Positions 5,463 through 51,215 of a stretch of 64,000 bases of DNA are shown here, one piece after another. Origin of the DNA: a virus; the IMG/VR virus record IMGVR_UViG_3300042197_003184, positions 1 to 64,000 of that record; one strand, given 5' to 3'. Position 1 is the stretch's first letter, and every line of letters starts with the position of its first letter. A program made the translations under genes and the position numbers. A model generated the notes under the pieces. The model ran no database searches. It saw only the letters and a list, made by a program, of their open reading frames with translations, and was not told the origin of the DNA.

Positions 5463-5471
5463 CGCTGACTA

Positions 5472-5510
5472 GCTGACTATCGCCATCAAGCCGGAGGCTT
5501 AGGTGAAACA
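5472..5510 (-). ncRNA. Gene-end hairpin motif, copy B
   Basis: GCTGACTAT-CGCCAT, then the hairpin AAGCC-GGA-GGCTT (5488-5500). GCTGACTA occurs twice here (5464 and 5472). It lies 4 nt beyond the TGA of the leftward gene ending at 5515 and abuts double palindrome copy 6. Confidence 0.6.
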
Positions 5511-5514
5511 ATGT

Positions 5515-28756: not shown

Positions 28757-29797
28757 ATGGCCAACAAGAGAGTTTATTACGCCACACAAATCGTACAACT
28801 TCAGCCAGTAAAAGCTGAGACAACTAGTGATTCATTTACGCCAGATACTGGAGGTTACGTTACTCCTCAAGGTTTACAAAGTGTTGGTATGACAACCAAT
28901 TTTAATCTTGAAACATTGTTTCAGTTGGGCCAGCAGGATCTATATGATCTAGTAGAAGGTATTCCAGAGATAGAAGTTACTCTACAAAAGACTCTTGATG
29001 GTAGTCGTCCATTATATCTATTATGCATGGGTGGCACTACATCCGGTGGTAGTAACGAGAATATCGGCACATTAGCAAATAACAGAGTTAACTTTAAGCT
29101 AGGTGTTTACAAAGACACCCAAACTGCCGCAGAAGGAAATTCTGAAACCGCTGTGTTATGCACGGGTATGTATTTGTCTAGTATCGCTTATAACCTACCC
29201 TTAGACGGTTTTGCTACAGAAGACGTTACCCTTGTTGGTAATCATAAAGTCTGGAGCGGAGAAAGCACATCCACCAGTTGGACCGAAGCTAGCCCCAAAA
29301 CAGCAAAACACGCTGTTCGTAGAATTAACGTTGATATCTCGGGTAGTGATGCTATTCCGACCACAATCCCAGGAGGTAAGAGCGCCCACTTTCAGAGCAT
29401 TAGCGTAAATGCTAATCTTGGAAGAGAAGCCATCAACGAGTTAGGTAGAATGGCCCCATATGCTCGTTACGTTAAGTTCCCATTAGAAGTAACATCAGAG
29501 TTCGTAGTTACTGCTACAGCAGTTGACAAGATCAAAGCTGACGACTTTTTAAGTAATACAGCCTCTTGCCAACTTAGCAAAAATCTAACCGATGAGCCAA
29601 TCAACGTTAGAATTTGTGGAACCGGAGCTAACGACTGGATGAAAATTGATCTTGGAGGCAAGAACAAACTTACCAGCGTTAATTATACTGGTGGAGGTAC
29701 TGGTGGTGACAATGCTACTATTACCTATAGTTATCAAACATATAACTATCTGAAGGTACAGGTTAACGGAAGTTTTGCTAACGTTAATCCTACCTGA
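28757..29797 (+). CDS. Major tail (tube) protein
   Basis: 346 residues. ANKRVYYATQIVQLQPVK… and LQSVGMTTNFNLETLFQLGQQDLYDLVEGIPEIEVTLQKTLDG resemble tail tube proteins of large siphophages, with a Gly/Thr-rich C-terminal beta region (GGGTGGDNATITYSYQTY). Position upstream of tail-assembly genes and the tape measure agrees. Its own ribosome site (GGAG) and promoter gap suggest strong expression. Polymerises into the DNA-conducting tail tube. Confidence 0.7.
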   Translation: MANKRVYYATQIVQLQPVKAETTSDSFTPDTGGYVTPQGLQSVGMTTNFNLETLFQLGQQDLYDLVEGIPEIEVTLQKTLDGSRPLYLLCMGGTTSGGSNENIGTLANNRVNFKLGVYKDTQTAAEGNSETAVLCTGMYLSSIAYNLPLDGFATEDVTLVGNHKVWSGESTSTSWTEASPKTAKHAVRRINVDISGSDAIPTTIPGGKSAHFQSISVNANLGREAINELGRMAPYARYVKFPLEVTSEFVVTATAVDKIKADDFLSNTASCQLSKNLTDEPINVRICGTGANDWMKIDLGGKNKLTSVNYTGGGTGGDNATITYSYQTYNYLKVQVNGSFANVNPT

Positions 29798-32204: not shown

Positions 32205-32249
32205 TGGTCTTTTCCTATTAGGTTTAGTTTTTTCTAGATGTCTACCAGA

Positions 32250-32276
32250 AATCCTCGTTAGTCGCGAGGATTTTTT
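32250..32276 (+). terminator. Intrinsic terminator before tape measure
   Basis: Stem AATCCTCG/CGAGGATT (32250-32257, 32265-32272) with a 7-nt loop and TTTTTT. It lies 25 nt before the tape-measure ATG, so it would limit readthrough into a 17-kb gene or act as an attenuator. Confidence 0.8.
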
Positions 32277-32300
32277 GGTTTTGATAAGGAGCATTAGCTA

Positions 32301-35300
32301 ATGGCTGGTTTTAATCTAACGGCTCAACTTAATCTACAAGGACCCTCGAATGTCAGAAAAATAGTTTCTGATATTCAGAGACAATTAGGTACTATCAAAG
32401 GCACAATAGATTTCACTCTCAATCCGGGTACCGCCAGAAATGTTACTCAATTAAATTCTGCACTCAAAACACTAAACACCACTTTTACTACAACCAACAG
32501 AACAGCAGTGTCTGCTGCTAATGCTATATCTCAATTTAATGCTGCCGTTAGCGGTATTAACACCAGATCCTTGACCACGAACATTGCCAGCTCTGCAACA
32601 GCCACACAAAAACTGACATCGCAACAAAGACAAGCATCCAAAGCTATTGATGAGTCAGCTTATAGTATGCAGGAGTTTGGTAAGCAGTCTCAATTGGCTA
32701 TCAAAAGATTTATTGCCTATAGCGCTGCTGCTGGTCCTATTTTAGCAGTAGCTAATGCTGCTCGTAAGGGTATTAGCGCATTTATAGAGTTTGACTCAGA
32801 AGTTGTTAAATTACAACAGGTGACTGGCGAATCAGCAGGAGGACTAAAGGAACTAACTAATACTATCACGTCATTATCTAGTGGGTTGGGCGTTTCATCT
32901 AGCGAATTGGTTAATGTTTCGTCCACATTAGCCCAGGCAGGCTTGAGTGCTAGAGATACAGAAAAAGCACTGAAAGCTTTGGCTCTTAGTTCTTTGGCTC
33001 CGTCATTCGATAATATGAATCAGACGGTAGAAGGTAGTATCGCTCTTATGAGACAGTTCGGTATTCAGGCCGGTTCTCTTGAGGGAGCATTGGGGTCGGT
33101 TAATGCCGTGGCTGCTAGATTTGCCGTAGAAGCTAGCGACATTATTGCCGCTATTCAGCGTACTGGTGGTGTGTTTGCCAGTGCCAGTAAGGGGGTTAGC
33201 GAAGGTACAGATGCTCTTAATGAATTTATTGCTGTGTTTACCAGCATTAGAGCGACTACTCGTGAAAGCGCAGAAACTATTGCTACAGGCTTGCGTACTA
33301 TTTTTACAAGAATACAAAGAGGCGGAACAATAGACGCTCTAAAGGAATATGGGGTTAACCTAACGGATTTAGACGGAAAGTTCGTTGGTGCCTACAAAGC
33401 GGTCGAGTTGCTGTCAAAAGGTTTGAATCAGCTTGACCCTAGAGATATTAGATTCTCCAAAATCGTAGAAGAGCTTGGTGGATTTAGACAGATCGGTAAG
33501 GTTATTCCTCTTATCCAGCAGTTTGCTACGGCACAGGAGGCACTCGCTGTTGCTCAACAAGGACAAGGCTCCTTAACAGAAGATGCTGCTGTAGCACAGC
33601 TTGCACTAGCAAATCAGATCTCCAAAGTTCGAGAAGAATTTTTAGCTTTATTTAGAGATATAGGAGCATCTGACACATTTCAAACATTAGCTAAGGGAGC
33701 GCTACAATTAACCAGCGCTATTATTGGCGTTGCTGATTCTGTGAAGGGGGTATTGCCAGTTTTGGCACTAATAGGTTCTATCAAGGGTACACAAGCCTTG
33801 TTGGAGTTCGGCTATGGTTTTACTGGGAGATCATCATCTGGAAGCAATAGAAAAAATACTCGTAATTTTGCTACTGGCGGTTATGTCCCCGGTGTTGGTG
33901 ATACAGATAGCATACCAGCCAATCTAACCCCGGGCGAGTATGTTATGAGTAAAAGGGCTGTTAGATCTATCGGTGTTGGAAATTTAAATAAAATGAACAA
34001 AGCTGGTGGTGGTAAAATATCAGATTATGGCGGAGCGCCTGCTGGTACAACCATCAACAACAGAGAAAATAAACCTGTTGGTATATCTAATGATACCTTT
34101 AGTTATTCAGGATTTTTTAATCCCCAAGGGATTTCTGTCACGATATCTTACGACAAAAAAAATAAAAGATATACAGCTCAAGCCCCAGCCGGATCCAAGG
34201 TTTCTTTAACCAAAAACGATATCAAAACCCTATTCAAAAACAATAAAGCTTCAGCGACAAGATTCGAAGAAATTAGTAGGGGTACTCTGGGAGGAACATT
34301 AGCCAATACCACAGACCCTAATTATCCTATCGATATTATTGATGGACAAAAACTATACGACACAAAGCTTTCTGTACCAGGAAACTATAAAGAAAAAGAA
34401 GCGGTACTAAAGGTTTTAAACTATAAACTAGATAAAGCCAATATAGGATATCAATATAACCAAGGCTCACAAGCGATCAAATTGTCTAGACCATCACCTA
34501 GACTACTAGGAGCTAATCTGACGCCAGCTTCTGATCCATTAAAAGCCCGAGAGTCTTTTTCTTTCGTATATCCAAAATTTGAAAATATACAAACCAAAGA
34601 TATCCAGGATCTACAGACCGATTTACAAAACAGATACGAGACATTCTCTGGTCTTAGTAGTCAACAGAATAGTGGTAAAAATTTATCTGATGCTGCCAAT
34701 AGGCTCAAAAACTTATCACAATCAGCCATAGAAACCTATCAATCCGATGCCAGAGGCATGAGTGCTATTGATGAAATTTCAGGCGATAAAAATATAATAA
34801 ACCTACTAAGAAATTATTCTTCTAGATCTTCTGGTGGCATAATTCAGAAATTTGCTACAGCCGGGGTGGTTAAAGAGCCCCAAAACATACCGGATAAAGT
34901 CGCTGAACTAGCTGCCAAAAAACAGCTATCTATACAGGACGTTATATTGTCTGAGTTCCAAGCTATTACAGGAGCTAGACTAAAGAGAGATCTTGGTATT
35001 CCAAACGCCGTTAGTTTACCCAGGGTTCCAGATTTACGCGCCGGTGTTGGTGTTGATAAAATCAAAGAGTTGGTCAATCGATATCTGCATATGAAAGGTA
35101 TAGAGAGCGCAGCAAAAGCAGAACAGATTGCTAAGATGAGAAAAGTAGCAATCGCAGGATTATTTCCGTTAGATTACTCTAAGGATTTTGATGACTGGAC
35201 TCTAGAAGATGGTAGACAAATCTATGGTATGGTTAGAGGATTTGGGAGTGAGTTCTTAGATGATATTCAACTAATGCAGCAGCGCACCATGGCCGCTCGC

Positions 35301-38300
35301 GACGAGTTTGCCATTAATGTACAAAACCGAAAAGCTTTGGGGTTATTGGCTGGCTCTTCAGTTCAGGGGCCTATTCAGCCTCTGGCGATAGATTTTGATG
35401 AAACACTAGCTCTTGGCACAAAAATGGTTGATGCTCAAGGAGAAGAAGACTTAGCGGCATATCGAGACCCAACAAAAGTTGCCGATAGCTTAGCCAAAGC
35501 TCGCCCAACAACTTTGGCCCAGCGCATGGCTGAGATAGAGAAAAGCAATCCAGGAGTTCTAAGAAAATACTCTAGAATCCTAACCGCCAGACCACAAGAA
35601 ACAGCCAGCATCATTGCTGCTACACTAAATAGATTTGGTTTACCATATCTAGAAAGTGACATCACTGGCCTAGCAAAAGGTCTTGGTACCAATATTCCAC
35701 TAGCAAAAGCCAATGATTTAGGTATCTTTGAAAAACTTATCGACGATAGCGAAGCTAATGTCAAAGCCGTGAGATCGTCGGGGAAAAATGCTTTTCAATA
35801 CGGAGAAGTCGAACCTCTTACCTCCGCAGCTGCTGGAAAAATCGGACAGTCAAATGTTGAAGCTAGTATTTTAGAAGGAGCTATAGGACAACAACTAGGA
35901 TACCCTATAGATATTGCGGCTCTGGAAAGAAATAGAGCAGTAGACTTTCCCCAAGGTCTTGGTAGAGCTGCCCAATATTTTGGCATACCTCCAAATATAG
36001 AAACAGAGATCAAAAGAACATTAGATGGAGACGCTTTTTTTAAAGCCAGAGGAGAGTTCAGTAGGTATTTTACAGAAAATCCTTCTTTGTTTAGCAACGG
36101 AGGTCTGGTTCAGTTTTTTGCAGATGCTGGGGAGATCAAAGATAGATCTACTAAGAATAGAAGAAGAGGAGCTTATGGAGCAAGAGGTTTTGTTCCGTTA
36201 AATAGTAGAGAATACGAAGCCTTTGCTGATAAAGCTTATGCCGAGGCCGGTCCGTATGGTGGTCCTGGATGGGGAAAATCAGCGGGCGTACCAATGCCAA
36301 AAGTTTTGGCGGATTATGCTGAAAAAATAAATAGATATGTTTTTGAAACTGGTGGTGCTGGATTATCTATAGGTAAGAAATTAGTTAGGATTCCAGACAA
36401 TATTGAGCCAGAAGCACTGGAAGCGTTAAAAGAAGACTTGATTAGACAGTATGACGGATGGTATGCTGAGATAGAAGAGGTGATGCCGTTTGGTAAGGCT
36501 ATTAACACATCAAATCCAATAACTGTCGCCAAAAATGCCAGGATGCAAGCTGCCGCTATGGCCGAGGCTGGAAATGCAGCCTATACACAAGCCGAGGATG
36601 CTATATCTGGTTTCAAGAAAACAGGAATCCTTGCTGGTTTTGATCCGTCAATAGAGAGCCATATCAAAACTTCTTTCCCAGCATATATTAAAGAGCTAGA
36701 GTCTTCTTTGAGATCCGAGACAGACCCTGATGAAAAATCTTCTATACAAAGAAAACTCAAAAAGGCTCAGGCAGCATGGCCAGATTATCAATCTTTGTTA
36801 TCTGGTACTCCGGTAGCTAATCAGGGTAGAATTACTGGGCTTTCAGAAACTCTCAATACCCTATTGGAAAGATATGGTAGTCCGGTATCTTTTGGCGAAA
36901 TAGATAATATTATCAAAGCTATGGGCTCTAAATTGCTTGGCAAAGCCTCTGGTGGTCTCATATCTTCTTTTGCTAGTGGTGGCAAAATTGGATTAGATGA
37001 TATTCGCAAAACCATAGAGGATAAATATCCCGATTATAAGTTTAGAATTAATCCAAAATCTAGTGGTTTTGGCTATAGAATGTTAGTAAGACCAGCTTCC
37101 AAAGATGCTCCTGAATCTTTGATGGCTTTTGATCTGGTGTCCAGACTATCTGATGCTCCAGCATTGGCAGAAAAACTCATAGGCAGAATACAAGAACAAC
37201 AAGGTGCTCAAAAATTTGCTTCTGGTGGTTATATTCCTGCTATGGTCAGTAATGGAGAAGCATTTGTACCCCCCGAAACCGCACAGAAGATAGGCTTTCA
37301 TACTCTAAACAGAATGAATCAAGCTGATCGTAATGGTATGGGTCAATTTGCTGGTGGAGGAGATATTAGTTTATTTAAAGGACCAGGTAGTGGGACCAGC
37401 GATAGTATAGGGCCTATTCCTTTGCCTGTTGGTGGTTTTGTTATTCGTGAAGCGGCTACCAGAGCTTTGGGTTTATCTAGAAAAGGTGGTGGTCCTATAG
37501 GACAAATCAGGTCTTTTGCTGTCGGAGGAAATAAAGGAGTTCCTGTATTGGGGACTAATAGACCCGATATTGTAAGTAGGTCAACCGTTGCCGTGTCTCC
37601 AGACACTATTCAGGGCGTTGCCACCTTGATCGATATTCTAGGAGAACTCGGTAGTGTAGCAAAAAATTCCGCAGATCTCATTAAAACCAATGGAGAGATT
37701 AGTTATAAGGTAGTAGAAAAAGCATTGGTTAAAGACATAGAAAGATTAAAAATATCTGGAGCAGGAATAGATAAAATTGCAATTGCTGAAAAATTATTAT
37801 CTGAGACTAGAAATAAAGGTAAAGCAGAAGTAGATAAACAAAAAAACCTACAAGGATTATCCTCTTTGAGAGGTAGTTCTACCACAGCCATACTTGGTGG
37901 ACAAACCGTAGGTAATCTACAAGCAGGAGCTGGCGCTGGTCAGCAAGCCATTGAAACACAAGCTCAGATGATAATAGAAGAAAAGATCAAAGCTCGTGGA
38001 GGGAAGGTATCAGATAAGCAAAGAGCTAAGATAGTTGAGTCGTCGTATGTTGATGCTGCATCTCAAATAACTGGAGTTAATAAAAAAGATTTTAAGGCTG
38101 CTGGTATAGGAGGATCAGATATACAGCAATATATTGCTGAATCGATGAGAGATCGTAAGACCCTATCCCAAATGGATAAACAGCTTATTGCCATAAAGCA
38201 AGAAGAAGTCCGTAGATCTGCAAATTTTTCTAGTTTGTCCAGAACAGAACAACAGAGGCTGTTACAACAAGCCAAACAAACAGCCGAACAAGAAATTAAA

Positions 38301-41300
38301 ACCAGAAGAGAAATCGTTAATCAATTAGCAGCCGAACAGGGTCGAGCAGGTGTGGGCGATGGTTCCGGTTCTATGGCTAGCGGACTATTTAGAAGACTAG
38401 AGAATCCTTTGGTTGCTCTTGGTCTTAGTAGTATGGGATCATTATTGGGATCCGGCACTCCTGGCAGTTCCAGCGAAGCTTCTCAAAACGCAGGTATTCA
38501 ATCTGGCATATCTACACTTAGTCAAGGATTATTTTTATCAGGACAAGTAGCTAGTATATTAGGTCCGGTAGCCGGTGGTGCTACTTTAGCAGCTTCGGCT
38601 TTGGCTTCGATAGCCAGCGCTTTCAAAGATGGGCGCAACGCATTTATAGAATTTGAGAAAAACCTAAGATCACAAAGGTTACAGAATACGCTTGAGGCAT
38701 TAGGTAACACATTTGCCCAACTAGAGAAAGACGTTAAAAATTTAGATCTACAAAATCAGGTATCTTCTCAACTAGTATCTGCTGGGTCAGAAGCGCAATC
38801 TTTAAACGATATTGTTACAGAAATACCTAAAGCGTTTTGGGTCAATATGTTTGATGCTGCTTTTAGCAGCAATCAGAGAGAAGCTTCGGATAGATCAAGA
38901 ATACTTGAAAAATTTGGAATATCAGCATATTTGTCTTCTACTTCCGCTTTTGGTTCAGAAGATAACAGAAGATTTTTCAACAGACAACTAATACCAGAAC
39001 AAGCACTAGCCAATGCAAGAAGTTTTTCTGAGGTAGGATTAAATACTCGTAGATTCATAGAAAATAGGGCAGATGCTGGAGCTAGCCTCAACGAAATAAT
39101 GAACTCGGCCGACTTTGCTCAGTTTGCTCGAAACATAGCTTTATCTAATGTTGAAGTTCAGAAACAAATATTGGCTATACAAAACTCAACATCTGCCAAT
39201 AAAGAAGCCGAACAACAGGCTATTATCACCAGATATGCAGAATCAGAAACCATAAAAATCGCACAAGCAGCTTCTAGACGTAGAAATTCCGAAGGATTAG
39301 ACAGAGAAACCAGATCATTCTCTGTTAGTATACAAAGAATTTCTCAAAATATGCAGGACGTAATTTCTGTCATAAATAGTAATCTTACTAGATTTAATGA
39401 AAAAATAGAGTACACCGTAGCAGCCATGTCTGGACAAGCCAGATCTGGACAGGTGTCTTTTGGTACTCTAGACGTTTTAAGGTCACCAAACGCCTTTTCT
39501 GGTTTCGACAGACAATCAGCCGCCGACAGAGCAGGATCTTTATTTGGTGGCGACCAAAAACTCATCAGCTCCCTCCTTGTGCTAAACAAGAACCTAGAAG
39601 AAAATATTATGAGAGCTATAGATTCTACTATAGCTAATAATCCATCTTCTAGCGATACAAAAATAGGTTTAAGTATAGACCAAGCTGTTCAAAACACTAT
39701 TAATCAATTAAACCTACCAGACGCTATAACCAAACAACTTAGCAGAGAAATAGGATTGGCCGTTGATAGACTGAGACAAAGCGGTAAAGAAAAGATAGAT
39801 TTTGAAGCATTAAAAAACGAGGTGCCTCAGCTAGAAAATATTATATCTAGCACTAGAGTTGCCCAGGAAGGGGCGATAAAGGCTTTGGAAAACTGGCAAA
39901 ATCAATTAAATGAGTTGACTCAGGCCATGAATAAAAGCTCGGATCTACAAATTTCTGCTGCTGATCGTAGAAACCAAGCCGAAGATATCGTAATTAATAG
40001 CAGTATAGAACTAGCTAAAGCGCTAGGTAGGAATTTCTCTGCTGGCTTTGGTAATAACTTAAGAGATAGACGTACCGCACGATTAACGGGAGGAGCTACT
40101 TCCCCAGAGGATATTTCAAACAGGTTAAGGAATTTAACACAACTCGGGGAAAGTCAATCAGCCAGCCTAGCTGCTCAATCAGAAAGAAGTGTTGGAGATA
40201 CCGGATCTTTGGATTCTATTGTGGCTAATCAAAGAGCTTTGAGACAAACGAATAACGAACTCAGACAAACACAACAGGCTTTGAAAAATTTAGCAGAAAA
40301 TTCCGAGGCGGCATCTCTGGCCTTATCTTCTATCCAAGAAACACAACAAAGACAGCAAGGCCGGGTTGCCTTAATAGAAAAACTAGTATCTAGTACGCCA
40401 GAAGAACTGTATAAATTCAGTGCCGCAGCAGACAGGCTTCAAAAAATAGCCAGAGGACAACCGGTTAATCAAACCTCTGACGAAAGAAGAGAAACATTAT
40501 CTGTATTTAATGATATAGCTCCTATGTTGGGTTCTTCTTTAGAAGCCAATAATATGAGAGCCAATATGCTTGAATCAATGCTTAGTGAATCTGGTGTTGG
40601 TTTAACTCCTCAGTTTCAGGCTATATTAAATGCTCTCAGAGATCCCCAAACCGACCCAGCCACACAAAAGGCGATAGAAGAATATTCTAAAGCTATTGAT
40701 ATACAATCTAGAGCTAATATAGAATTAGCAAAAATTAATACAGACCTAGCAGACCAAATAGCAGATGCTTCGGCTCGTGCCCTAAAGGATGCTTTAACAA
40801 ATCAGGTAGTTAAGTTTGAAAGCACTCAACTGGCAGATATTGCCAGAGGACTAAGATCATTAACCACCACAACACAAAACCAAGCAGCACCCCCCGTAGC
40901 CAGAGCAGATGGTGGTATAATCTATGCTGCTACAGGAACTAACGTACCAGATTTTGCTCCGAGAGGAACAGATACGGTACCTGCTATGTTGACACCAGGA
41001 GAATTTGTAGTTAATCGTTCGGCAACACAAAAAAATCTGCCACTACTTAATGCTATAAACAATGGCTATAGTAAAGGAGGCAGGGTTTCTTATTATCAAG
41101 ACGGAGGTTATGTTAGCAGTACGCTGAGAGAAGAATATCAAAACAGAGAACCATTTAAGGAATCTAAAGGCTCCTATATGGTATTGCCAGAAAATATAGG
41201 AGAGCCAGAAGATTTATATACTTGGAACAAAGTTCGCAGTGTTGCTGTTCCGTCAACAGATAATGTTGAAAAAATTAATATAAACTCTAAACCCAATGAT

Positions 41301-44300
41301 CAGCTATATATAAAAGCCAATAGACAACTAGGTTATGGTTATACGGGATTTAGGGCTCAATATGATACTTCTGCCGGAGAGTATAGTTTTTGGAGATTCA
41401 ACCCAGAGGGGTCTTTATCTCCGAGTATACTAAAGCCTTTAGGTCGCTATTATTTAAGCCCAAGACTTCTTGAGCTTGGTTCAGGTTCAGAAAAACAAAA
41501 GCTGGTCGATCAAACCGGCATACCAAACCGAACAGAAATCGAGGATTATACAGCAAGACTAAATAATATTTTGAAACATCTACCGTCAAAAGCATCCAGA
41601 TCTGCTGGACAAGGAACTATTGAAATTGATGGCTCTAAAATCATAGTAGAAGATCAAAAGTTTGCTGGTAGCACCGGACAACTAACTGCTTATACCAAAA
41701 ACCAAGAAGTTGTTGTAAAAAATCTAGCCAAGTCTCTTGATAGCAACTTAAATTATGGATTATATACATCGTCTCCTATGGTTGGTTTGACCCATAGTCT
41801 TGATTCTATAATGGATTTTTCTGGAGATCATTGGGGTCGTTTTTTCTTTGGTAGTGCTGCTCAAACCCGCAAAGAATCCTCTGGTAGTTCTGAGTCTTTA
41901 TTACGAAGCACTAGTGGCGGTAAATATGCTTTAACGTATAATCCAAAATTAGATAGCTTATTTGATCCTGATAAATTACCAGACATTATTAGTGCATTGA
42001 AATCGTCTCAGGAAGCACTAGCTAATGAGGAATTTGCAACATCAGATAAGAATACTGGTATAGACAAACAGAATACAGCACTTAGAGAGTTATATATTGG
42101 CACCATAGCTAAACAAATATTGGAGGGTAGAGCATCCTCAAATCAACAAGATGGGCAATCAACAGACAAAGAATATGCTTATAAGTTTGGACCAGAATTT
42201 GCTAATGCATCTAAATTAACAGTTTATGGTGTGACAACTGACGAATGGACTAAATCCAGAGATGGCTCTGCTTCTTATCTACAAAGATTTCAAAGCATTA
42301 TCGGCAAACAAAAAGAAGCTAAATACTGGGATCCTGATGGGACGTACAAAACTCCGTTCGATATTGCTCCTAGAAGCGATTTGAATAGTAAGAAATTTTT
42401 CCCTTGGGTAGCTGGTGACGCTCCGGATCTGGCCGTTTTGGATGCTGAATTAAAAGAACGAGCAGATGCCACCCAGGCAGAAACGTATGGTAAACAAGGA
42501 GACACTATCCTAAAAAGCGGCAGATTCAAATTTAATGAGCTGCCATTTACTGTGCCATACGCTATGTCTTATGTGTCTTTAGAAAAGCCCAAAAAATATG
42601 ACGCAGCTACGGGGACTTATACAGACGAGAACCTACTGCCCAATGGGCTACAAAAAGCAGATATTATTAGTTCAGATAACTTATTTAGGAAAGCTAAGGA
42701 TGATTTTCCTAGTGTAACGGCAATTACGGATGCTACCGGCTCCAATGATAGCTCTGGTTCGTTAGGCTATGTTGCCGGTTTGATACAGAACTTTGTGAAT
42801 CAGTCTGATAGGTTCAAAAAATATTTTGGACTAATCAAAACGTCCTACTCAGAAGATCAGCCATCTGTTGAATTACAAAAGTTAAAATCGCAATTAAAAT
42901 ATTCTACTATTAATTTGGCTGGTAGTCAAAGTCCTTTCTTTGGCTTCTTAACGGGCTCAAATAAACAGTATACAGGTTATGATTCGCTAACCAGACCACT
43001 AACTATTGGCGATGTATTATTGGACCTAATAGACAGAGAAGCCAAGAATAAAACCTCAACTTTATCTGCTATAAAAAATCAAAGATATTCGTCTAAACCA
43101 GAAGACTCTGACAACAAAACCAACTTCAAACTATCCCAGTATCCTGCACTGGCTCAGGGGTTAATATACTCAGCATATGACCTATTTGGTTCTGGTAAGA
43201 CATACGAAATGCCTAATAGTTTGGGTCGTGGCTGGTTTAGTCCTCGAATGAGCCAAAGATATAATAGTATTTTTGAGATTCAGCCTGAACTTATTCAGGA
43301 TTATATGAAACAGCTATCTATTATTTTTGGAAATCAATATGCTAATCTAGAATCGAACTTATCTAGATTTGTTGGAACACCAGAATATGACAAAGCTATA
43401 GAGACCATGAGCTACTTACAAGGTGCTCAAAAGGCTTTCTTTATGATTGGTGATCCGGCGACTGGTACGTCGGTACTAGGAGGCTTGCTGGATAGATCAA
43501 TGTTTGATGATAGGGTTTTTGACCAAGCCGAAAAAGAAGCAATAACCAATGTTTTCAAATCGTTAGGCGCTTCTGGTAAAGACTCCAGAATTCGCAGTCG
43601 TTTATTGGATACTATATCGGAGGATGAGAAAGTAGATTGGGAAAGACAATTAACTGGGTCTAGAATTAATGATCCCAAAACAAAAAACTCAGCAACACAA
43701 GAATTTGGCGAAGTGAATGTTCCACAAACATTCAATGATCTTTTTGATTTAGGTATTAATCCATATAATCAATTTACTAATCGAAATATTAGAAAATCTA
43801 TTTTTGATAGATTTTTAAGCAATATTGCAACAGCTCAAGACAGAAGAGGCAGACCACTATTCTCTACTAGTGGCGGTAAAGAGTTTGGAGATGCTTTAAG
43901 CAATCTGCGTTTGTGGTATGGTGGAAATGACGAAGATTGGCAGGGCTTAGATTATTTATATGATAAAAACATCAAACCCATAGAGAATACCGATACTGTC
44001 CCATCATATAATGATAGATGGAACGAACTCAATAGCTTTAATAGAAAAGATAATCTCTATAAAGATGCTGAAACCTCTCACTCATTAGTGGGCGGTAGAG
44101 AAAAATTTGGAGAGCTTCCTCCATTAGATTTTTATAAAGACAGAGGAGACGAGATCCAATATCGACGTACTGGTGGTATTATTTATGCTTCTCAAGGATC
44201 ATTAGTTAACTTTGAGCCTAGAGGCACAGATACTGTTCCTGCGATGTTGACTCCAGGAGAATTTGTCGTAAATCGATCTGCTACGCAAAAACACTTGCCG

Positions 44301-47300
44301 CTATTGAGAGCGATCAACGACGGAGCAAAGGGTTATAGTAGCGGCGGTGTGGTATACCTCAGTAGCGGAGGTTTAACACCAGCACAAGAAACTAGATTTA
44401 ATGAACTTAGTGGTATGTCTTCTAGAAATAGAGAAGAAGAAAATGAGTACATTGATCTGAAAAATAAAAGAATGTCTGGAGGGGCACAATCGAGTTCTAC
44501 AACAACGCAATCTAATATTCAACAGTCACGCAGAACCGCTGTAAGAGAGCGTAATCAGAGAATGGCGCTAATGGCCATACCTCCCAACGAAAGAACTCCA
44601 GAGCAGCAAGAAAGATATAATGCTCTGATAGCTAAGAGAGATAAAGATAGACCAGAAATAGCTAAACGCAATGCTAATTATAGAGCTTCACAAGCTTATA
44701 ATGCAGAAGCTGAAAGACGCAGTAACGAAAGACTAGTGAATCAATATGCCGATGAATACAGATCGTCTGGTAGCGAATTATCCCCAGAAGAGTGGGCAGC
44801 ACAAAACAAACCAGGAATGAGGGGTCAGAGACTGGACGGCTTCTTAGCTAGAGTATCTGGTTCAGACTATGATTATGGTCGTAAAATGACTGACCAGGAA
44901 TTTGCTGACGCTGGTACAGCTAATAGAGCAAGGCTAGATGCTTCAACACAACAAAAGGCTCAACAATACACCTCAGGGTCTTCACCTGCTCAACAGCCAG
45001 CCGCACAAACCGGCTCCAAACCAATGTTACCGCCTAGTGAGCAAGAACAAGAACCAGCAGATTCCACAGTCCCTTCTATACCTGCGCCTCCGGCACCGGC
45101 GGCAGAACCACCAAAACCAGCGCCAGCACCAGCGGTTGAGCCACCCAAACCAGCGCCAGCACCAGCGGTTGAGCCACCCAAACCAGCGCCAGCACCAGCA
45201 CCAGCACCAGCGGTTGAGCCACCCAAACCAGCTACAGTACCAGCACCAGTTTGGGCAAGAGGAGGAACAGACGAGGATCCGTTTGCTGAACGAGCCAAAC
45301 CATCACCAGCAGACGCCGCTAAAACAAGAGCAGAAGAAAGAAGAACAGCTTCTGAGGAGCAACAAACAGAAGCAAGAAAAGAAAGAAGAGAGCTAAGACG
45401 AGCAGCTGCTCAACAAAGAGAAGATATTATAGCAGAAACTCGTAGACGACTAGAAATGACTATTAGTCGTGAAGAAGCAACAATTAAAGATAAAGCCAAG
45501 AACAGAGAAGAGTCCGGTTGGTGGGCTGCGTCTATGAGAGGTATGGGATTAATGTCTGATCCTTACGAAGCAGAAATGGCCGCTTCTCGACAAAGAATCA
45601 CAGCAGCTAGAATGGGTTTGTCAGAATTAAAGACTGCTACTGTAGACGTTTCTCCGTCAGGATATGTGCGAGATACGTTCAAAGTTGAAAACTTTAATGC
45701 TGCTAGAAGATTAGCTGGATTAGACGAGGTAACTACCGGAGTTGACTCTGCTGGAAATATGACAGTATCTCGCGTGGAAAAAGATGAGACAGAAAAAGCT
45801 AATGATGCTGCAAGAAGAGCTGCTGATACGGCCTATAGCAGACAGTTGATGGATAATGAGCAGTCACAGATTACAGCAGCTAGAGACATTAGTATAGATA
45901 GTGTTTTGGCTGTTGGTGGAGTAGCTACAGGAGTTGCTGGTATGGCTACTCGTGGTGGCACAATGGCTCTTCAACAAGCAGGCAAAATAGGACTTAGACA
46001 AGTAGCTAAAACAGCAGCCTTGGAAGGCGCTGCTGAAGGTTTAGCTGGAGGAACCACAAGAGCAATTGATGACGTAACTAGAGGAGCTAAAACAACTCAA
46101 GAAGGCATATCTTCCGCACTATTAGAATCTACTATAGGAGGTGTTGCAGGTAGTGTGTTGGGTCCTGCTTTTTCTGTAGGAATACCGGCTGCTGGCAGAG
46201 TATTAAGTGGTATGGGTTCGTTTGTTGGAGATATGGCGAGTCCTATTACCAAGCCAATAGGCGACTTAATGTCATCTACATATGATTCAATTTCTCGCGG
46301 CTTATCAGGAATGTCAGATTATTTGGATTTACCCACCCAGTCCAGATACTCAGCATTACTACCGTCCGATCCTAAGCAAGCAAAACAATACAGGGCTCTT
46401 GTGTCTGCTGGCCGTGGACCTAGAGAAGCTATCGAAGAACTAGATGAAATCCTAAGAACCGGCTCTAACAGGTTTGACAAACAAGAAGAAGCTTTCGCCC
46501 AATGGACATCTAAGAATCTCTTTGATTTTGTTGGTATGCAGCCCGGTAGTTTGGTAAGTAGACTACGAAGCAATCCTCTCGACGGGTTATTTGATAATAT
46601 TAACTCGGGACCAGGAATAGGCAGACCAAGAGGGTCTTTATCGGAAATTGCTGGGGTAGATAAGTATAGAATACCCAATTTATCAGACGAAGCTGCCCGA
46701 CCAGTACAGAAAATGAAAGTAACAGCAGCTCAAGTCACAGAATATCAAAAATTAATAGATTCTGGAATGAACCCGGCATCGGCTCAACAACAGGCACTAA
46801 GACAAACTTCAACAACAGAAACAGCGCCCGCCACGGCCGCTCAAATCTATAGACAAAATTTACCAAGAGCGATAGACGATCCATCTCGTATGGAACAGGG
46901 TTTGTATAGAACGCAAGTGCGTAAGGGCTCATATGACAATCCCGATAATATGAACAGGTGGTTTTATCCAAAAAATCCTGGTATAGATATGATCGGAGAC
47001 TCTATAAATACCGGATATAAACCCAGATTTGCTGTAAAAGAAGGTAAAATGAACGAAATGATTGAGCGCATGGCAGCCGACGAACGGTTGTCTTGGATGC
47101 TTGGTCCGAGCGGTTTTAAACAGCAGCCGTTTGGAGAAGAGGTATTATCAGGTAGAGACAACAGATTTTTAGTTCTGTATAGCAGTAGAGGTACGTCCGA
47201 CGAAGCTTTAGCTATCACTCAACGTATGGAAGAGATTGGAGAAGATCTTCTTTTTGCAGGAGGGGCGAAGGATTATGGCGACAGAATGGCGCTAGGAAAA

Positions 47301-49502
47301 TTCGGCAGTACCAGATATGATCCAGATCTCACAACGCTTACCAATCCCCCAGGACTACAAAAAACACTATTAGACTTAAGACAAAGATGGCTGTCAGAGC
47401 GTGGCTCTTCTTCATACGATCCTGATTTCGCTGCTTTTGACCAAGCATTAGTCAAACAACAAGACTACAGACTAGCTCTTTATGAGGCCGGTAAAAGAGC
47501 ACCAGGCACAATGATGGATAAATTTTATAAGGATTATCCCGACTTATTCCCGAGTTATGCTGGAGATATCAGCTACTCACCAGCCTCTACTTCGGCACTA
47601 TCGGATGCTGTACCAGTAGCAGCTAAACAACCTAACACATCAACGTCTACTGCTCCGACTGACAAGATTACAATAACCCCTCCCAATGACATAGCACAAC
47701 CAACCGCGATTTTCAACAGAATAAGAGCAACAAGACAACTACAGTCTTCAGCAGAAAATTCAGCTGGTATCAATCTATCAGCACCTGAACAATTGTCTTT
47801 GACAGAAGATGCTTTGTCCAGACTACAAGAAATTCAACTAGATAGCGACTACGTCAGCAATCGCGCCCTTGGTAATTTTCGCGGTGATATCAAACAGGGT
47901 GAATCCAAAACAGGATTGTTTAGTGGTACTATACAGATTGGAAAAAAGAGCATAGGCAATCTAGAAGTTTTAGGACACGAGAGACTACACGCCGCATCCT
48001 TTATCATGCAACAATTAGATAATATTACTGGAGGAAATATAGCTCCAGAAGTTTTAGATTTAATGGCGAACAAATTAAATTTAAATTTAAAATCGGTAGA
48101 GATAATAAGATCTGGCGCTGGTAAAAGAAGTCTAAATTTTGCAAAAAACACAACCGATCCAGAAAAGCTTTCCGCTTTACAAAACATGGATATTTTACCA
48201 GCATCACTACCGGATCAAAAAATACTAAAAGCCTCCGTTCTTGCAGAAAGATTCCTAGAAGAGTACCAGGTTGCTCAAGCATTAAAATTTGGAGAAAATA
48301 TATCTAATATAAATTTACGTAGTGTTGATACTACAAGAAAAGCCCTTCTAAAAGAACTATCACAATTTACAACAGCAGACAGTATAGCTCCAATTAAAAA
48401 GAGACTGTCAGAAGTTATTCCAACAAACAAATTAGATACACTACTTGATTCTGGTGCTGGTCCTTTTACTCCTAAAGATATATACCCACTTCCCACCAAT
48501 AAATCAGGAATACTAGATAATATCTTGTCTATTATACAGTCTCCTGGAAATCTGAGTGAAAATCTAGGTTCCAAACTAATGCAACAACCTGGCCTAAAAG
48601 ACTTTATCGACAAGATAGCGTCTGATAATCCTCAGGTAGCAAGCCTAGCAAAATCAGCTAAAACCCCATTAAAATTCTTAACTAATCTATCAACATTTGG
48701 ATTGGGGTTCTCTGCTGCTGGCATTGCTCTAAGAAATCTAATGTCAACAGATCCCAATCGGCCGAATGTTGTAGAGGCTCGAACCAGATCTTTGATGCCC
48801 GGAGAAAATCCAGAAGACCCAAATACTAAACCCTTAAGATCTTATTATTCTGACGGTACCCCAGTACCAGAAGACGAACAACCCAAAGAAACAAAAAGAA
48901 TGAGCACCGGAGGTATTGTTTATGCCAATAATGGTGCTTTTATAGCTGCTACCAGAGGATCTGACAGTGTTCCGGCAATGCTAACTCCGGGCGAGTTTGT
49001 GGTAAATAGACAAGCAGCAGCTAATAATATGACATTATTACATGCTATTAATAGTGGTCATTATACTCACGGAGGATTAGTTAAATATTTAGCTAATGGC
49101 GGGGTGGTACAGCCCAAATATTTGGAGTATGGCTCTCAAAACCCAGTAAATTCTATTAACAATCAGGCTGCTAATAGTGGTGTATTATCTAGTAGAGTTA
49201 GCCAGAATATGGTATCGCAACAGGTTCAGGCACCATCTTTTGACTACTCAAAAATGGAGCAATTATTTAATAGGTTTGAACAAGCTATGGATAGGAGCGC
49301 CAGCGCCATTAAAGACGGAGGCACAATCGAACACAAACTCACAGGAGAAGTCAAAACAGCATACGACCAGAAATCTATCCAAGATATTATTGGTAGATCT
49401 GTTGGTATCAGTAATTCCAACACTAACGCCCAAGTCAATAATGCTCAAGCAAATACAAATAGAACATTATTCAACAATACTGACGGAGCAATAGACCCCT
49501 AG
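32301..49502 (+). CDS. Giant tape measure protein, 5733 aa
   Basis: One uninterrupted frame. Residues about 130-480 match the phage tail tape-measure core (FIEFDSEVVKLQQVTGES, LSSGLGVSSSELVNVSSTLAQAGLS, ETIATGLRTIFTRIQRGG). The motif GGxxPG…DTVPAMLTPGEFVVN recurs near 526, 2870, 3960 and 5540, with degenerate forms near 1640 and 1700. A HAD-phosphatase-like domain lies at about 1020-1165 (DFDET at 1031-1035, LTAR at 1094-1097, DDS at 1148-1150). HERLH at 5226-5230 is an HExxH zinc-site pattern. Pro/Ala-rich repeats lie near 4261-4314 and membrane-like helices near 2030-2115 and 4533-4560. It sets tail length, chaperones tube assembly and may enter the host with DNA. AAGGAG precedes the ATG. 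Confidence 0.95.
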   Translation: MAGFNLTAQLNLQGPSNVRKIVSDIQRQLGTIKGTIDFTLNPGTARNVTQLNSALKTLNTTFTTTNRTAVSAANAISQFNAAVSGINTRSLTTNIASSATATQKLTSQQRQASKAIDESAYSMQEFGKQSQLAIKRFIAYSAAAGPILAVANAARKGISAFIEFDSEVVKLQQVTGESAGGLKELTNTITSLSSGLGVSSSELVNVSSTLAQAGLSARDTEKALKALALSSLAPSFDNMNQTVEGSIALMRQFGIQAGSLEGALGSVNAVAARFAVEASDIIAAIQRTGGVFASASKGVSEGTDALNEFIAVFTSIRATTRESAETIATGLRTIFTRIQRGGTIDALKEYGVNLTDLDGKFVGAYKAVELLSKGLNQLDPRDIRFSKIVEELGGFRQIGKVIPLIQQFATAQEALAVAQQGQGSLTEDAAVAQLALANQISKVREEFLALFRDIGASDTFQTLAKGALQLTSAIIGVADSVKGVLPVLALIGSIKGTQALLEFGYGFTGRSSSGSNRKNTRNFATGGYVPGVGDTDSIPANLTPGEYVMSKRAVRSIGVGNLNKMNKAGGGKISDYGGAPAGTTINNRENKPVGISNDTFSYSGFFNPQGISVTISYDKKNKRYTAQAPAGSKVSLTKNDIKTLFKNNKASATRFEEISRGTLGGTLANTTDPNYPIDIIDGQKLYDTKLSVPGNYKEKEAVLKVLNYKLDKANIGYQYNQGSQAIKLSRPSPRLLGANLTPASDPLKARESFSFVYPKFENIQTKDIQDLQTDLQNRYETFSGLSSQQNSGKNLSDAANRLKNLSQSAIETYQSDARGMSAIDEISGDKNIINLLRNYSSRSSGGIIQKFATAGVVKEPQNIPDKVAELAAKKQLSIQDVILSEFQAITGARLKRDLGIPNAVSLPRVPDLRAGVGVDKIKELVNRYLHMKGIESAAKAEQIAKMRKVAIAGLFPLDYSKDFDDWTLEDGRQIYGMVRGFGSEFLDDIQLMQQRTMAARDEFAINVQNRKALGLLAGSSVQGPIQPLAIDFDETLALGTKMVDAQGEEDLAAYRDPTKVADSLAKARPTTLAQRMAEIEKSNPGVLRKYSRILTARPQETASIIAATLNRFGLPYLESDITGLAKGLGTNIPLAKANDLGIFEKLIDDSEANVKAVRSSGKNAFQYGEVEPLTSAAAGKIGQSNVEASILEGAIGQQLGYPIDIAALERNRAVDFPQGLGRAAQYFGIPPNIETEIKRTLDGDAFFKARGEFSRYFTENPSLFSNGGLVQFFADAGEIKDRSTKNRRRGAYGARGFVPLNSREYEAFADKAYAEAGPYGGPGWGKSAGVPMPKVLADYAEKINRYVFETGGAGLSIGKKLVRIPDNIEPEALEALKEDLIRQYDGWYAEIEEVMPFGKAINTSNPITVAKNARMQAAAMAEAGNAAYTQAEDAISGFKKTGILAGFDPSIESHIKTSFPAYIKELESSLRSETDPDEKSSIQRKLKKAQAAWPDYQSLLSGTPVANQGRITGLSETLNTLLERYGSPVSFGEIDNIIKAMGSKLLGKASGGLISSFASGGKIGLDDIRKTIEDKYPDYKFRINPKSSGFGYRMLVRPASKDAPESLMAFDLVSRLSDAPALAEKLIGRIQEQQGAQKFASGGYIPAMVSNGEAFVPPETAQKIGFHTLNRMNQADRNGMGQFAGGGDISLFKGPGSGTSDSIGPIPLPVGGFVIREAATRALGLSRKGGGPIGQIRSFAVGGNKGVPVLGTNRPDIVSRSTVAVSPDTIQGVATLIDILGELGSVAKNSADLIKTNGEISYKVVEKALVKDIERLKISGAGIDKIAIAEKLLSETRNKGKAEVDKQKNLQGLSSLRGSSTTAILGGQTVGNLQAGAGAGQQAIETQAQMIIEEKIKARGGKVSDKQRAKIVESSYVDAASQITGVNKKDFKAAGIGGSDIQQYIAESMRDRKTLSQMDKQLIAIKQEEVRRSANFSSLSRTEQQRLLQQAKQTAEQEIKTRREIVNQLAAEQGRAGVGDGSGSMASGLFRRLENPLVALGLSSMGSLLGSGTPGSSSEASQNAGIQSGISTLSQGLFLSGQVASILGPVAGGATLAASALASIASAFKDGRNAFIEFEKNLRSQRLQNTLEALGNTFAQLEKDVKNLDLQNQVSSQLVSAGSEAQSLNDIVTEIPKAFWVNMFDAAFSSNQREASDRSRILEKFGISAYLSSTSAFGSEDNRRFFNRQLIPEQALANARSFSEVGLNTRRFIENRADAGASLNEIMNSADFAQFARNIALSNVEVQKQILAIQNSTSANKEAEQQAIITRYAESETIKIAQAASRRRNSEGLDRETRSFSVSIQRISQNMQDVISVINSNLTRFNEKIEYTVAAMSGQARSGQVSFGTLDVLRSPNAFSGFDRQSAADRAGSLFGGDQKLISSLLVLNKNLEENIMRAIDSTIANNPSSSDTKIGLSIDQAVQNTINQLNLPDAITKQLSREIGLAVDRLRQSGKEKIDFEALKNEVPQLENIISSTRVAQEGAIKALENWQNQLNELTQAMNKSSDLQISAADRRNQAEDIVINSSIELAKALGRNFSAGFGNNLRDRRTARLTGGATSPEDISNRLRNLTQLGESQSASLAAQSERSVGDTGSLDSIVANQRALRQTNNELRQTQQALKNLAENSEAASLALSSIQETQQRQQGRVALIEKLVSSTPEELYKFSAAADRLQKIARGQPVNQTSDERRETLSVFNDIAPMLGSSLEANNMRANMLESMLSESGVGLTPQFQAILNALRDPQTDPATQKAIEEYSKAIDIQSRANIELAKINTDLADQIADASARALKDALTNQVVKFESTQLADIARGLRSLTTTTQNQAAPPVARADGGIIYAATGTNVPDFAPRGTDTVPAMLTPGEFVVNRSATQKNLPLLNAINNGYSKGGRVSYYQDGGYVSSTLREEYQNREPFKESKGSYMVLPENIGEPEDLYTWNKVRSVAVPSTDNVEKININSKPNDQLYIKANRQLGYGYTGFRAQYDTSAGEYSFWRFNPEGSLSPSILKPLGRYYLSPRLLELGSGSEKQKLVDQTGIPNRTEIEDYTARLNNILKHLPSKASRSAGQGTIEIDGSKIIVEDQKFAGSTGQLTAYTKNQEVVVKNLAKSLDSNLNYGLYTSSPMVGLTHSLDSIMDFSGDHWGRFFFGSAAQTRKESSGSSESLLRSTSGGKYALTYNPKLDSLFDPDKLPDIISALKSSQEALANEEFATSDKNTGIDKQNTALRELYIGTIAKQILEGRASSNQQDGQSTDKEYAYKFGPEFANASKLTVYGVTTDEWTKSRDGSASYLQRFQSIIGKQKEAKYWDPDGTYKTPFDIAPRSDLNSKKFFPWVAGDAPDLAVLDAELKERADATQAETYGKQGDTILKSGRFKFNELPFTVPYAMSYVSLEKPKKYDAATGTYTDENLLPNGLQKADIISSDNLFRKAKDDFPSVTAITDATGSNDSSGSLGYVAGLIQNFVNQSDRFKKYFGLIKTSYSEDQPSVELQKLKSQLKYSTINLAGSQSPFFGFLTGSNKQYTGYDSLTRPLTIGDVLLDLIDREAKNKTSTLSAIKNQRYSSKPEDSDNKTNFKLSQYPALAQGLIYSAYDLFGSGKTYEMPNSLGRGWFSPRMSQRYNSIFEIQPELIQDYMKQLSIIFGNQYANLESNLSRFVGTPEYDKAIETMSYLQGAQKAFFMIGDPATGTSVLGGLLDRSMFDDRVFDQAEKEAITNVFKSLGASGKDSRIRSRLLDTISEDEKVDWERQLTGSRINDPKTKNSATQEFGEVNVPQTFNDLFDLGINPYNQFTNRNIRKSIFDRFLSNIATAQDRRGRPLFSTSGGKEFGDALSNLRLWYGGNDEDWQGLDYLYDKNIKPIENTDTVPSYNDRWNELNSFNRKDNLYKDAETSHSLVGGREKFGELPPLDFYKDRGDEIQYRRTGGIIYASQGSLVNFEPRGTDTVPAMLTPGEFVVNRSATQKHLPLLRAINDGAKGYSSGGVVYLSSGGLTPAQETRFNELSGMSSRNREEENEYIDLKNKRMSGGAQSSSTTTQSNIQQSRRTAVRERNQRMALMAIPPNERTPEQQERYNALIAKRDKDRPEIAKRNANYRASQAYNAEAERRSNERLVNQYADEYRSSGSELSPEEWAAQNKPGMRGQRLDGFLARVSGSDYDYGRKMTDQEFADAGTANRARLDASTQQKAQQYTSGSSPAQQPAAQTGSKPMLPPSEQEQEPADSTVPSIPAPPAPAAEPPKPAPAPAVEPPKPAPAPAVEPPKPAPAPAPAPAVEPPKPATVPAPVWARGGTDEDPFAERAKPSPADAAKTRAEERRTASEEQQTEARKERRELRRAAAQQREDIIAETRRRLEMTISREEATIKDKAKNREESGWWAASMRGMGLMSDPYEAEMAASRQRITAARMGLSELKTATVDVSPSGYVRDTFKVENFNAARRLAGLDEVTTGVDSAGNMTVSRVEKDETEKANDAARRAADTAYSRQLMDNEQSQITAARDISIDSVLAVGGVATGVAGMATRGGTMALQQAGKIGLRQVAKTAALEGAAEGLAGGTTRAIDDVTRGAKTTQEGISSALLESTIGGVAGSVLGPAFSVGIPAAGRVLSGMGSFVGDMASPITKPIGDLMSSTYDSISRGLSGMSDYLDLPTQSRYSALLPSDPKQAKQYRALVSAGRGPREAIEELDEILRTGSNRFDKQEEAFAQWTSKNLFDFVGMQPGSLVSRLRSNPLDGLFDNINSGPGIGRPRGSLSEIAGVDKYRIPNLSDEAARPVQKMKVTAAQVTEYQKLIDSGMNPASAQQQALRQTSTTETAPATAAQIYRQNLPRAIDDPSRMEQGLYRTQVRKGSYDNPDNMNRWFYPKNPGIDMIGDSINTGYKPRFAVKEGKMNEMIERMAADERLSWMLGPSGFKQQPFGEEVLSGRDNRFLVLYSSRGTSDEALAITQRMEEIGEDLLFAGGAKDYGDRMALGKFGSTRYDPDLTTLTNPPGLQKTLLDLRQRWLSERGSSSYDPDFAAFDQALVKQQDYRLALYEAGKRAPGTMMDKFYKDYPDLFPSYAGDISYSPASTSALSDAVPVAAKQPNTSTSTAPTDKITITPPNDIAQPTAIFNRIRATRQLQSSAENSAGINLSAPEQLSLTEDALSRLQEIQLDSDYVSNRALGNFRGDIKQGESKTGLFSGTIQIGKKSIGNLEVLGHERLHAASFIMQQLDNITGGNIAPEVLDLMANKLNLNLKSVEIIRSGAGKRSLNFAKNTTDPEKLSALQNMDILPASLPDQKILKASVLAERFLEEYQVAQALKFGENISNINLRSVDTTRKALLKELSQFTTADSIAPIKKRLSEVIPTNKLDTLLDSGAGPFTPKDIYPLPTNKSGILDNILSIIQSPGNLSENLGSKLMQQPGLKDFIDKIASDNPQVASLAKSAKTPLKFLTNLSTFGLGFSAAGIALRNLMSTDPNRPNVVEARTRSLMPGENPEDPNTKPLRSYYSDGTPVPEDEQPKETKRMSTGGIVYANNGAFIAATRGSDSVPAMLTPGEFVVNRQAAANNMTLLHAINSGHYTHGGLVKYLANGGVVQPKYLEYGSQNPVNSINNQAANSGVLSSRVSQNMVSQQVQAPSFDYSKMEQLFNRFEQAMDRSASAIKDGGTIEHKLTGEVKTAYDQKSIQDIIGRSVGISNSNTNAQVNNAQANTNRTLFNNTDGAIDP
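45081..45240 (+). repeat. PAPAVEPPK repeats in tape measure
   Basis: Near-identical tandem DNA units (about 45 bp, CCACCCAAACCAGCGCCAGC and so on) coding PPKPAPAPAVE, three to four times. A flexible linker between the fourth motif region and a helical region. Prone to unequal recombination. Confidence 0.8.
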
Positions 49503-49532: not shown

Positions 49533-51215
49533 ATGATAAATAAATCAATAAAAATTATCGACGGAGTTTGCTGTTCTTTTGCCATAAAGGATGGAATGTT
49601 AGCTCTGGGGCCTTCTGTATCTGGGTTTAAAACCCTAAGTATACATGATGAAAGTAAAATAATTCCTTATTTATGTCGAAACACTATCAGCACAGGAGTC
49701 GAATGGGAGGTTGGAATTGGCGAAGTTGTAGTGGTTGACGGGGTGGTTTGTGTAAGCAGAATTAGAGTGCTGTCTTCTTCTAATAATAATAACGTAGTAT
49801 CATTTACTGACCTTAAAGATCCAACATTTTTTATTGTGGCTAATGAGTACAGCTTTGATACCGCATTCAATAATTTGGTTAGTAAAAATACTGATTTTAA
49901 TGTTGATAATGTTAGAACCACTTATTTCGTAGACTCATCCAACCGAACGGTGACAGCAACACTTCCATCTGCTAAGAATAATCCCAATTTAGTTGTTGAG
50001 TTTAAATTATCTACTAGCAATAATTATTGTTATATTGTAACTAGTAACAAAGAATCCATAGATGGATTATCTACTGTAGTTCTAGATGGTAATAAAAAAT
50101 ATACCAAATTAATATCAACGGGTTATGATTGGACAGAACTTGTTAACCATATGATTGTTCCGCCAATGATAGCATCATTGCCTGAGCCAGAACTTTCTAC
50201 GCAGAACTTTGCTATGCTATCCTCCGTACCCGGTTCTGGTTTACCAAACGGACCACTAAACTCCGTACAGTTCAATAACAACGGACTATTCGATGGCGCA
50301 GACATCTATACTGCTCCAGGTTTTGTCTACTTTGGTGGTTCCGGTAGTACAGACTCTCACGCACAAATTGCCACTACCGGTAATCAACCAAATATTTTTA
50401 ATACTAAGTATACCGTATCAGATTTTATTGTAAGAGGCAGTTCTGTTCATAAGAATTTAATTTTTACTCACGACGGTAAACTTGGTATTAATATGCCATC
50501 CGGACTCAAGCCTAATACAGCTTTACATATTAATAACAATGGTTGTATAGACGGTATACGTTTAGAGAACAACAACAACTGCCACCCAGCATCACTGACC
50601 CTATATCATAAACCATCCACTGTTCCGCCAACAGGCACCATTGCTGCTCAAATCAATCTATCTGGTAAAAACAGTAATAACTACCAAACCAATTATGTAC
50701 AGTTAAAATCTAGAATTCTTAATAATATACTGGGAAGTACCGCTGGTGAATTCGTTTTATCTGTTGATAATTCTGGATCCATGAGAGACGTTTTGGTTGC
50801 CAATAAAGACTTTATGAGCATTAACTACGGCAATAATTCTATTAGAGTATCGACTTCCGGCACATTCATATCCGGACCAGTAGATATTTCTACTTTTAAT
50901 ATCGATGGTGGTGTGGTTGTATTTGGGGGTTTGTCTTCTGACAATAGTCCAAGTACAACGGTCACGCCGACCCCAACAGCTACCGAAACTCCTACTCCCA
51001 CACCGAGCGTTACTCCATTTAATACTCCAACAAATACCACAACTCCCACACCAACACCGACCCCAACGGCGACCCCAACCGAAACACCAACTAATACTCC
51101 ATCAGTAACCCCAACTGAAACTCCCACAGTAACGCCGACCGAAACACCAACGGTTACCCCAACTGAAACCCCAACACCGACCCCAACAGCAACTCCAATA
51201 GAAACTTCAGAATAA
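49533..51215 (+). CDS. Tail-tip/fibre protein with Thr-Pro stalk
   Basis: 560 residues. The N-terminal part is beta-rich ([31 protein letters not shown]). Residues 225-470 resemble phage fibre/appendage segments ([65 protein letters not shown]). Residues about 475-560 are Thr-Pro repeats ([15 protein letters not shown]…) forming an extended stalk with no terminal domain. First gene after the tape measure, where tail-tip proteins begin. It could be glycosylated on Thr. Function as fibre is inferred. Confidence 0.7.
50959..51211 (+). repeat. Thr-Pro coding repeat tract 1
   Basis: Degenerate 6- and 12-bp repeats (ACNCCNACN, GAAACNCCN) coding TPT, TET and TNT units. Codon choice varies between units, so protein sequence rather than DNA sequence has been kept. 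Confidence 0.9.

Follow-up and report, generated by a model that had tools for sequence, protein, structure and literature searches.

We identified a 17.2 kb gene for a tape measure protein (TMP) of 5733 residues and read it as the ruler of a siphophage tail that would be ~810–945 nm long, with a tube of the P74-26/T5 class, and that owes its giant size to modules gained, lost and swapped in frame. We put the probability of this reading as a whole at roughly two in three. Tape measures are the textbook rulers of phage tails.

A giant frame in an uncultured clade

The stretch analysed here (the window) comprises the first 64 kb of the 139,964-base IMG/VR virus record IMGVR_UViG_3300042197_003184 (features in Table 1). 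Its TMP gene has 5733 codons, starts with ATG behind an AAGGAG at 32286–32291 and contains no internal stop; the length of this open frame is far above chance expectation. The TMP N-terminus, which is kept in homologues when frames are compared across other records, matched PF10145 (76.9 bits versus a cut-off of 33.2, E=2.6e-21) and phrog_28 (E=1.1e-28), and phrog_4211 and phrog_1533 matched as well. That is, frame, PF10145 and phrog_28 agree with an earlier, sequence-only reading of this stretch as one 5733-residue tape measure.

The phage belongs to an uncultured clade that is common in IMG/VR, where a terminase scan gave at least 596 confirmed relatives. Searching the clade records with the conserved N-terminal block of the TMP (N-block) yielded open frames of 2961–7795 aa, a few of which are cut by contig ends. 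60 frames are complete, the window's and 59 from other records, although they do not equal 60 independent phages, since some records are near duplicates (two carry an identical 7794-aa TMP). These frames span 2539–7794 aa with a median of ~5120; 19 of the 60, the window's counted, have at least 5733 aa and 33 are longer than the TMP of Thermus phage P74-26. Beyond what had been read from the sequence, the TMP is modular, and its 5733 aa are mid-range for a clade that reaches 7794 aa.

Hairpins of ≤ -9 kcal/mol within 105 nt 5' of the TMP start were detected in 22 of 26 genomes, with differing stem sequences (shuffled sequences gave such a hairpin in 0.5% of cases, stretches taken at random in 0.8%). 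The hairpin likely lowers transcription into the TMP gene, the product of which would be needed in few copies per virion.

Elsewhere in the window, genes for a subtilase-family protease, a glutamine amidotransferase and SIS-domain protein (GlmS-like) and a GDP-mannose 4,6-dehydratase were found (9081–10688 (-), 10774–12585 (-) and 14924–15952 (+), respectively), which suggests that the phage carries genes of sugar metabolism. The gene for DNA polymerase III alpha is divided between two ORFs (L207:4380-8736, record 88380-92736) with a 231-aa ORF between them (L207:5998-6693), and the sole tRNA found in the record is a tRNA-Pro with anticodon agg (L206:14894-14974).

Table 1. Features of the tape measure gene and its neighbourhood in the window; residues (res) are those of the TMP.
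Feature	Position (nt)	Strand	Basis and remarks
Tail tube protein, 346 aa, two tube domains	28757..29797	+	AF2 model vs P74-26 tube 8ed0
Conserved tail-module protein, 343 aa	29984..31015	+	Probable paralogue of 31326-32204; putative chaperone or tail-completion role
Small conserved protein, 101 aa	31024..31329	+	Frame overlaps next gene
Conserved tail-module protein, 292 aa	31326..32204	+	Directly 5' of TMP; putative assembly chaperone
Terminator-like hairpin and T run	32248..32276	+	Between 292-aa gene and TMP; -13.9 kcal/mol; putative attenuator
Tape measure protein (TMP) gene	32301..49502	+	Single open frame, 5733 aa; PF10145 and phrog_28/4211/1533 at N-terminus; full-length homologous frames elsewhere
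Conserved N-block, res 1-520	32301..33860	+	PhageMin_Tail domain res 188-381; hydrophobic stretch res 470-494
Motif copy 1, res 521-576, GDTDSIPANLTPGEYVMSK	33861..34028	+	Motif HMM
Embedded HAD-phosphatase-like domain, ~res 1029-1277	35385..36131	+	Motifs DFDET (1031-1035), LTARP, K1136, DD (1148-1149)
Motif copies 2 and 3, doublet, res 1640-1687 and 1695-1727	37218..37481	+	Motif HMM
Core rod candidate, res 1760-2870	37578..40910	+	Pro+Gly content 8%; nearly all relatives align here
Motif copy 4, res 2871-2936, GTDTVPAMLTPGEFVVNRSAT	40911..41108	+	Motif HMM
Variable module, res 2937-3957	41109..44171	+	Most of module in only 2-6/22 relatives
Motif copy 5, res 3958-4024	44172..44372	+	Motif HMM
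Variable module, res 4025-5536	44373..48908	+	Pro-Ala repeats nt 45078-45244; HExxH res 5226 (nt 47976-47990)
Motif copy 6, res 5537-5602	48909..49106	+	Motif HMM; then C-terminal segment to 49499
560-aa gene 3' of TMP	49533..51215	+	Part common to longer proteins in relatives; putative tail-tip role from position

Modules and their exchange

For block conservation, we aligned the window TMP to 22 relatives. The N-block is present in 21–22 of them at 54% mean identity (conservation extends to ~residue 600), the core (~residues 1640–2930) is common to nearly all, and the region of motif copy 6 (~residues 5530–5600) aligned in 21. Poorly shared segments separate these conserved blocks. Residues ~3000–3750 and 4600–5400 have few or no counterparts among the first 22 TMPs compared, and for residues 4601–5400 of the second variable module relatives are absent among the 22. 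By these alignments, much of the 5733-aa protein consists of exchangeable modules.

A TPGEFVVN motif recurs along the TMP. Using an HMM of 66 positions, we found six copies in the window TMP, 2–11 per clade TMP and none in P74-26. Copy number grows with TMP length (Spearman 0.69 across 27 TMPs, kinship ignored). The core spacing between copies is nearly constant in most TMPs, whereas other modules vary. The motif region is already known, as judged from its matches to PHROGs and to some cyanophage proteins. Pfam searches with all variable modules gave only marginal or EF-hand matches and one SHD1, so that most modules are unnamed; from NTP_transf_6 at residues 1404–1495 (E=0.11) we make no claim.

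Module exchange was analysed in 13 TMP pairs with 80–92% identical N-block DNA, some members of which occur in several pairs. Here, 54 segments of at least 100 residues break the shared DNA blocks, being replaced, inserted or too diverged for alignment. For 42 of the 108 block ends, a motif copy is no more than 25 residues away, versus 14.4 expected (0 of 5000 simulations reached 42). This enrichment suggests that the motifs are recombination seams, although a slowly evolving motif also ends alignments nearby and the pairs share members. Two in-frame insertions are clean: 424 residues (852–1276) of G053 are absent from G054, with flanks 83% and 89% identical, and 206 residues of G031 are absent from G096. 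Even TMPs with 90% identical N-blocks can lie more than 1500 residues apart (3490 in G074 versus 5022 in G076). When mosaicism of phage proteins was surveyed, no recent tape measure case could be confirmed (PMC10684548); the alignments of clade relatives show clean, recent in-frame module exchange in TMPs.

Some modules look like enzymes. Of 14 aligned TMPs, 13 retain the motifs of a HAD phosphatase (DFDxT, T/S-A-R, Lys, Asp-Asp), and the D, D, T, K, D and D columns are invariant in a 12-sequence alignment. AF2 modelled residues 1029–1169 with a pLDDT of ~80–94 but was poor elsewhere (mean 50.8), and the best structure match of the model in the PDB was the 3'-phosphatase of T4 Pnkp (Z 11.4 across 126 residues), with other HAD phosphatases close behind. 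We therefore call residues ~1029–1277 HAD-phosphatase-like: the model has a HAD (Rossmann-like) fold with conserved catalytic motifs, and phosphatase activity is putative. Parts of the domain occur in altered order in relatives G033 and G035, and no relatives of it were found in isolated phages. HExxH sites, 19 in 11 of 26 TMPs (0.12 expected from shuffles), fall into several unrelated families and include the window's own (Table 1). These modules may be zincin-like; Pfam peptidase families did not match them, and PDB sequence searches with the HAD region and with the HExxH region returned nothing useful.

Predicted tail length and tail type

Tail length scales with TMP size in several siphophages. 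In TP901-1, the 118 nm tail corresponds to 0.145 nm/aa and its length tracks TMP deletions (PMC5099701). Tsamsa has a TMP of 3123 aa and a 440 nm tail (0.141 nm/aa; PMC3903500), Katyusha a TMP gene of 9084 bp with putative lytic transglycosylase domains and a tail of ~500 nm (0.165 nm/aa; PMC4919401) and Hotorobo a TMP gene of 9984 bp and a tail of ~540 nm (0.162 nm/aa; PMC4982279). The tail of P74-26 is over 800 nm long (PMC9022992), and its record lists a TMP of 5006 aa with an annotated metallopeptidase domain. Applied to 5733 aa, 0.141–0.165 nm/residue predicts a flexible tail of ~810–945 nm; on the 7794-aa clade TMPs the same scaling predicts ~1.1–1.3 micrometres. The sequence-only reading had put the tail at 860 nm, and its arithmetic (0.15 nm × 5733) is correct, as is its figure of ~5000 residues for the TMP of P74-26. 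A tail of ~810–945 nm would, as a sound prediction, rank among the longest known phage tails.

In the mechanism that we propose, chaperones encoded upstream would coat a few TMP copies, two-domain tube subunits would polymerise along the coated TMP, and the TMP would fix the final tail length at ~0.14–0.165 nm per residue. Giant TMPs would arise by in-frame gain, loss and swap of modules, often bounded by the 66-aa TPGEFVVN motif, and some modules would be enzyme-like (HAD phosphatase, zincin-like). We take the whole TMP to count towards length mainly because two calibrators carry embedded enzyme domains.

Not every residue needs to be measured, however. In a rather unlikely reading, which we nevertheless take seriously, the N-block, core and C-terminus alone form the ruler (~1900 aa, ~270 nm), and the variable modules are length-neutral: enzymes that are carried or processed, and linkers. 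The near-constant core spacing amid varying modules fits this, as do the threefold span of TMP length within one clade and the position of the HAD fold and the HExxH sites in variable modules. Low Pro+Gly is also concentrated mainly in the core, where it drops to 4–9% per 100 residues over most of the length. Pro+Gly-poor windows cover ~1047 of 5733 residues here versus 1512 of 5006 in P74-26, so less of the window TMP looks rod-like. As a rod test, we rejected Pro+Gly content as non-discriminating, P74-26 being mixed as well, and signals of 11/18-residue or heptad periodicity in the TMP were weak and inconsistent. Against length-neutral modules, Katyusha and P74-26 still reach ~0.16 nm/aa or more with embedded enzyme domains, and TP901-1 tails shorten on deletions in the TMP repeat region and in a hydrophobic region alike (PMC5099701). 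Moreover, a TMP that fills the lumen leaves folded domains that add no length without obvious room.

The reading of the whole TMP as ruler has its own difficulties. Gaps of more than 1500 residues at 90% N-block identity would mean either that tail length is very labile or that modules are length-neutral, and folded HAD domains, several abreast, would be unlikely to fit a ~4-nm lumen. In addition, the mean pLDDT of the tube model is only 69.7, and the tail itself is seen here through its genes. We tentatively consider, as a possible but doubtful extension, that the TMP is a modular carriage: a ruler lengthened by exchangeable enzyme modules (a Pnkp-like phosphatase and several zincin-like ones) that are recombined at TPGEFVVN seams, travel in the tail and pass into the host before the DNA. 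Tail length would then drift with the cargo, to >1.1 micrometres at 7794 aa.

Turning to tail type, the AF2 model of the tube protein (28757 gene) was built with 15 relatives and has a pTM of 0.76. Its best structural match was the P74-26 tube 8ed0 (Z 17.9, rmsd 4.8 over 289 residues), followed by SH-Ab15497 (Z 16.8) and T5 (Z 16.7), with the DT57C tube also matching; after eight siphophage-tube entries, scores fell to Z 8.7. The P74-26 tail is made of trimeric, pseudo-hexameric rings of two-domain subunits, and T5 subunits are two-domain with similar pseudosymmetry (PMC10034513). The sheath families PF04984 (Phage_sheath_1) and PF17482 (Phage_sheath_1C) were found in 0 of 23 records with control genomes positive, a search that a diverged sheath or a missing contig part could escape. 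The phage is best read as a siphophage of the same tube class as P74-26, which has the longest tail known, and the tube model supports the siphophage-type tail assumed at the outset. A myophage TMP in a contractile, sheathed tail, to which the TPGEFVV motif region in some cyanophage proteins (35–61% identity) might point, is disfavoured by the tube class and the absent Pfam sheath and is very improbable.

The order of tube, chaperone-like genes, TMP and tail-tip candidates is kept in 23 records, with chaperone and tip roles suggested by position; on the same basis, the genes between tube and TMP would encode chaperones. The 292-aa protein is 65–81% identical in 21 of 22 relatives and 35% in G004. 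A weak relative of its gene (29%) lies at L124:8944-9489, on a contig assigned by binning to Candidatus Lokiarchaeota. A scan of genome contigs gave two matches, one of them on a 5.3-kb contig that belongs to an alphaproteobacterial MAG and is possibly a binned phage contig. In relatives G026, G035 and G039 the tube gene is tandem-duplicated (~410 and 370 aa), which suggests two tube-type subunits. 3' of the TMP, 51746–54019 and 54283–59538 both encode long low-complexity stretches with TPTxTPT repeats, and the 1751-aa protein of the latter has PPG/GP runs too; both products are probably tail-fibre or adhesin-like.

Finally, the least probable account is an assembly artefact that wrongly joins two or more genes, an error the sequence-only reading had itself raised and of which we saw no sign: short-peptide scans found no relatives of residues ~3001–3833 and 4601–5433, but the 17.2 kb are stop-free, an identical 7794-aa frame came from two records, and fusion is rejected on the 59 other complete homologous frames, with giant frames in separate records having the same block order wherever compared. 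These frames speak less directly to a local misjoin inside the unique modules of the window's TMP.

Known systems compared

It is hard to test whether a TMP measures with each of its residues, those in embedded folded domains among them. The clade relatives are a natural experiment, with clean in-frame modules on 80–92% identical backgrounds, and threefold ruler variation within one clade makes what a TMP measures testable. If the ruler holds, the tails of longer clade members would exceed 1 micrometre and be the longest known for any virus.

Among isolated phages, neither DNA searches nor tube-protein searches found a relative. The YomI-type TMPs of SPbeta rank among the isolated-phage relatives that cover the N-block best (~27% over residues 240–493), but they are distant and no similarity was seen beyond the N-block. 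The 3'-phosphatase domain of T4 Pnkp shares catalytic motifs and HAD fold with the embedded module; unlike in T4 Pnkp, the module here is part of a structural tail protein with no kinase domain seen, and its activity is putative.

Bacillus phage Tsamsa is likewise a giant siphophage in which tail and giant TMP fit each other, but its TMP is smaller and it is absent from the relatives found. The same absence holds for the Gordonia phages, whose TMPs are about half as large. GMA7, Katyusha and Hotorobo nevertheless pair long siphophage tails of 500–540 nm with TMP genes of 9.1–10 kb, and the TMPs of Katyusha and Benczkowski14 carry putative lytic transglycosylase domains, comparable to the enzyme-like modules described here.

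A close parallel is found in the Thermus phages P74-26 and P23-45 (Oshimavirus). Their TMP is shorter, lacks TPGEFVVN copies and, like their tube, has no sequence similarity by tblastn; a tblastn search with the tube protein returned no phage record at E≤1, and the N-block matches, tallied by organism, included no Thermus phage. However, both systems combine a giant TMP (5006 aa in theirs) with a two-domain tube, theirs being the closest fold found, and both carry a metallopeptidase-like feature in the TMP (an annotated domain there, a putative zincin-like HExxH site here) together with a very long non-contractile tail, predicted in our case.
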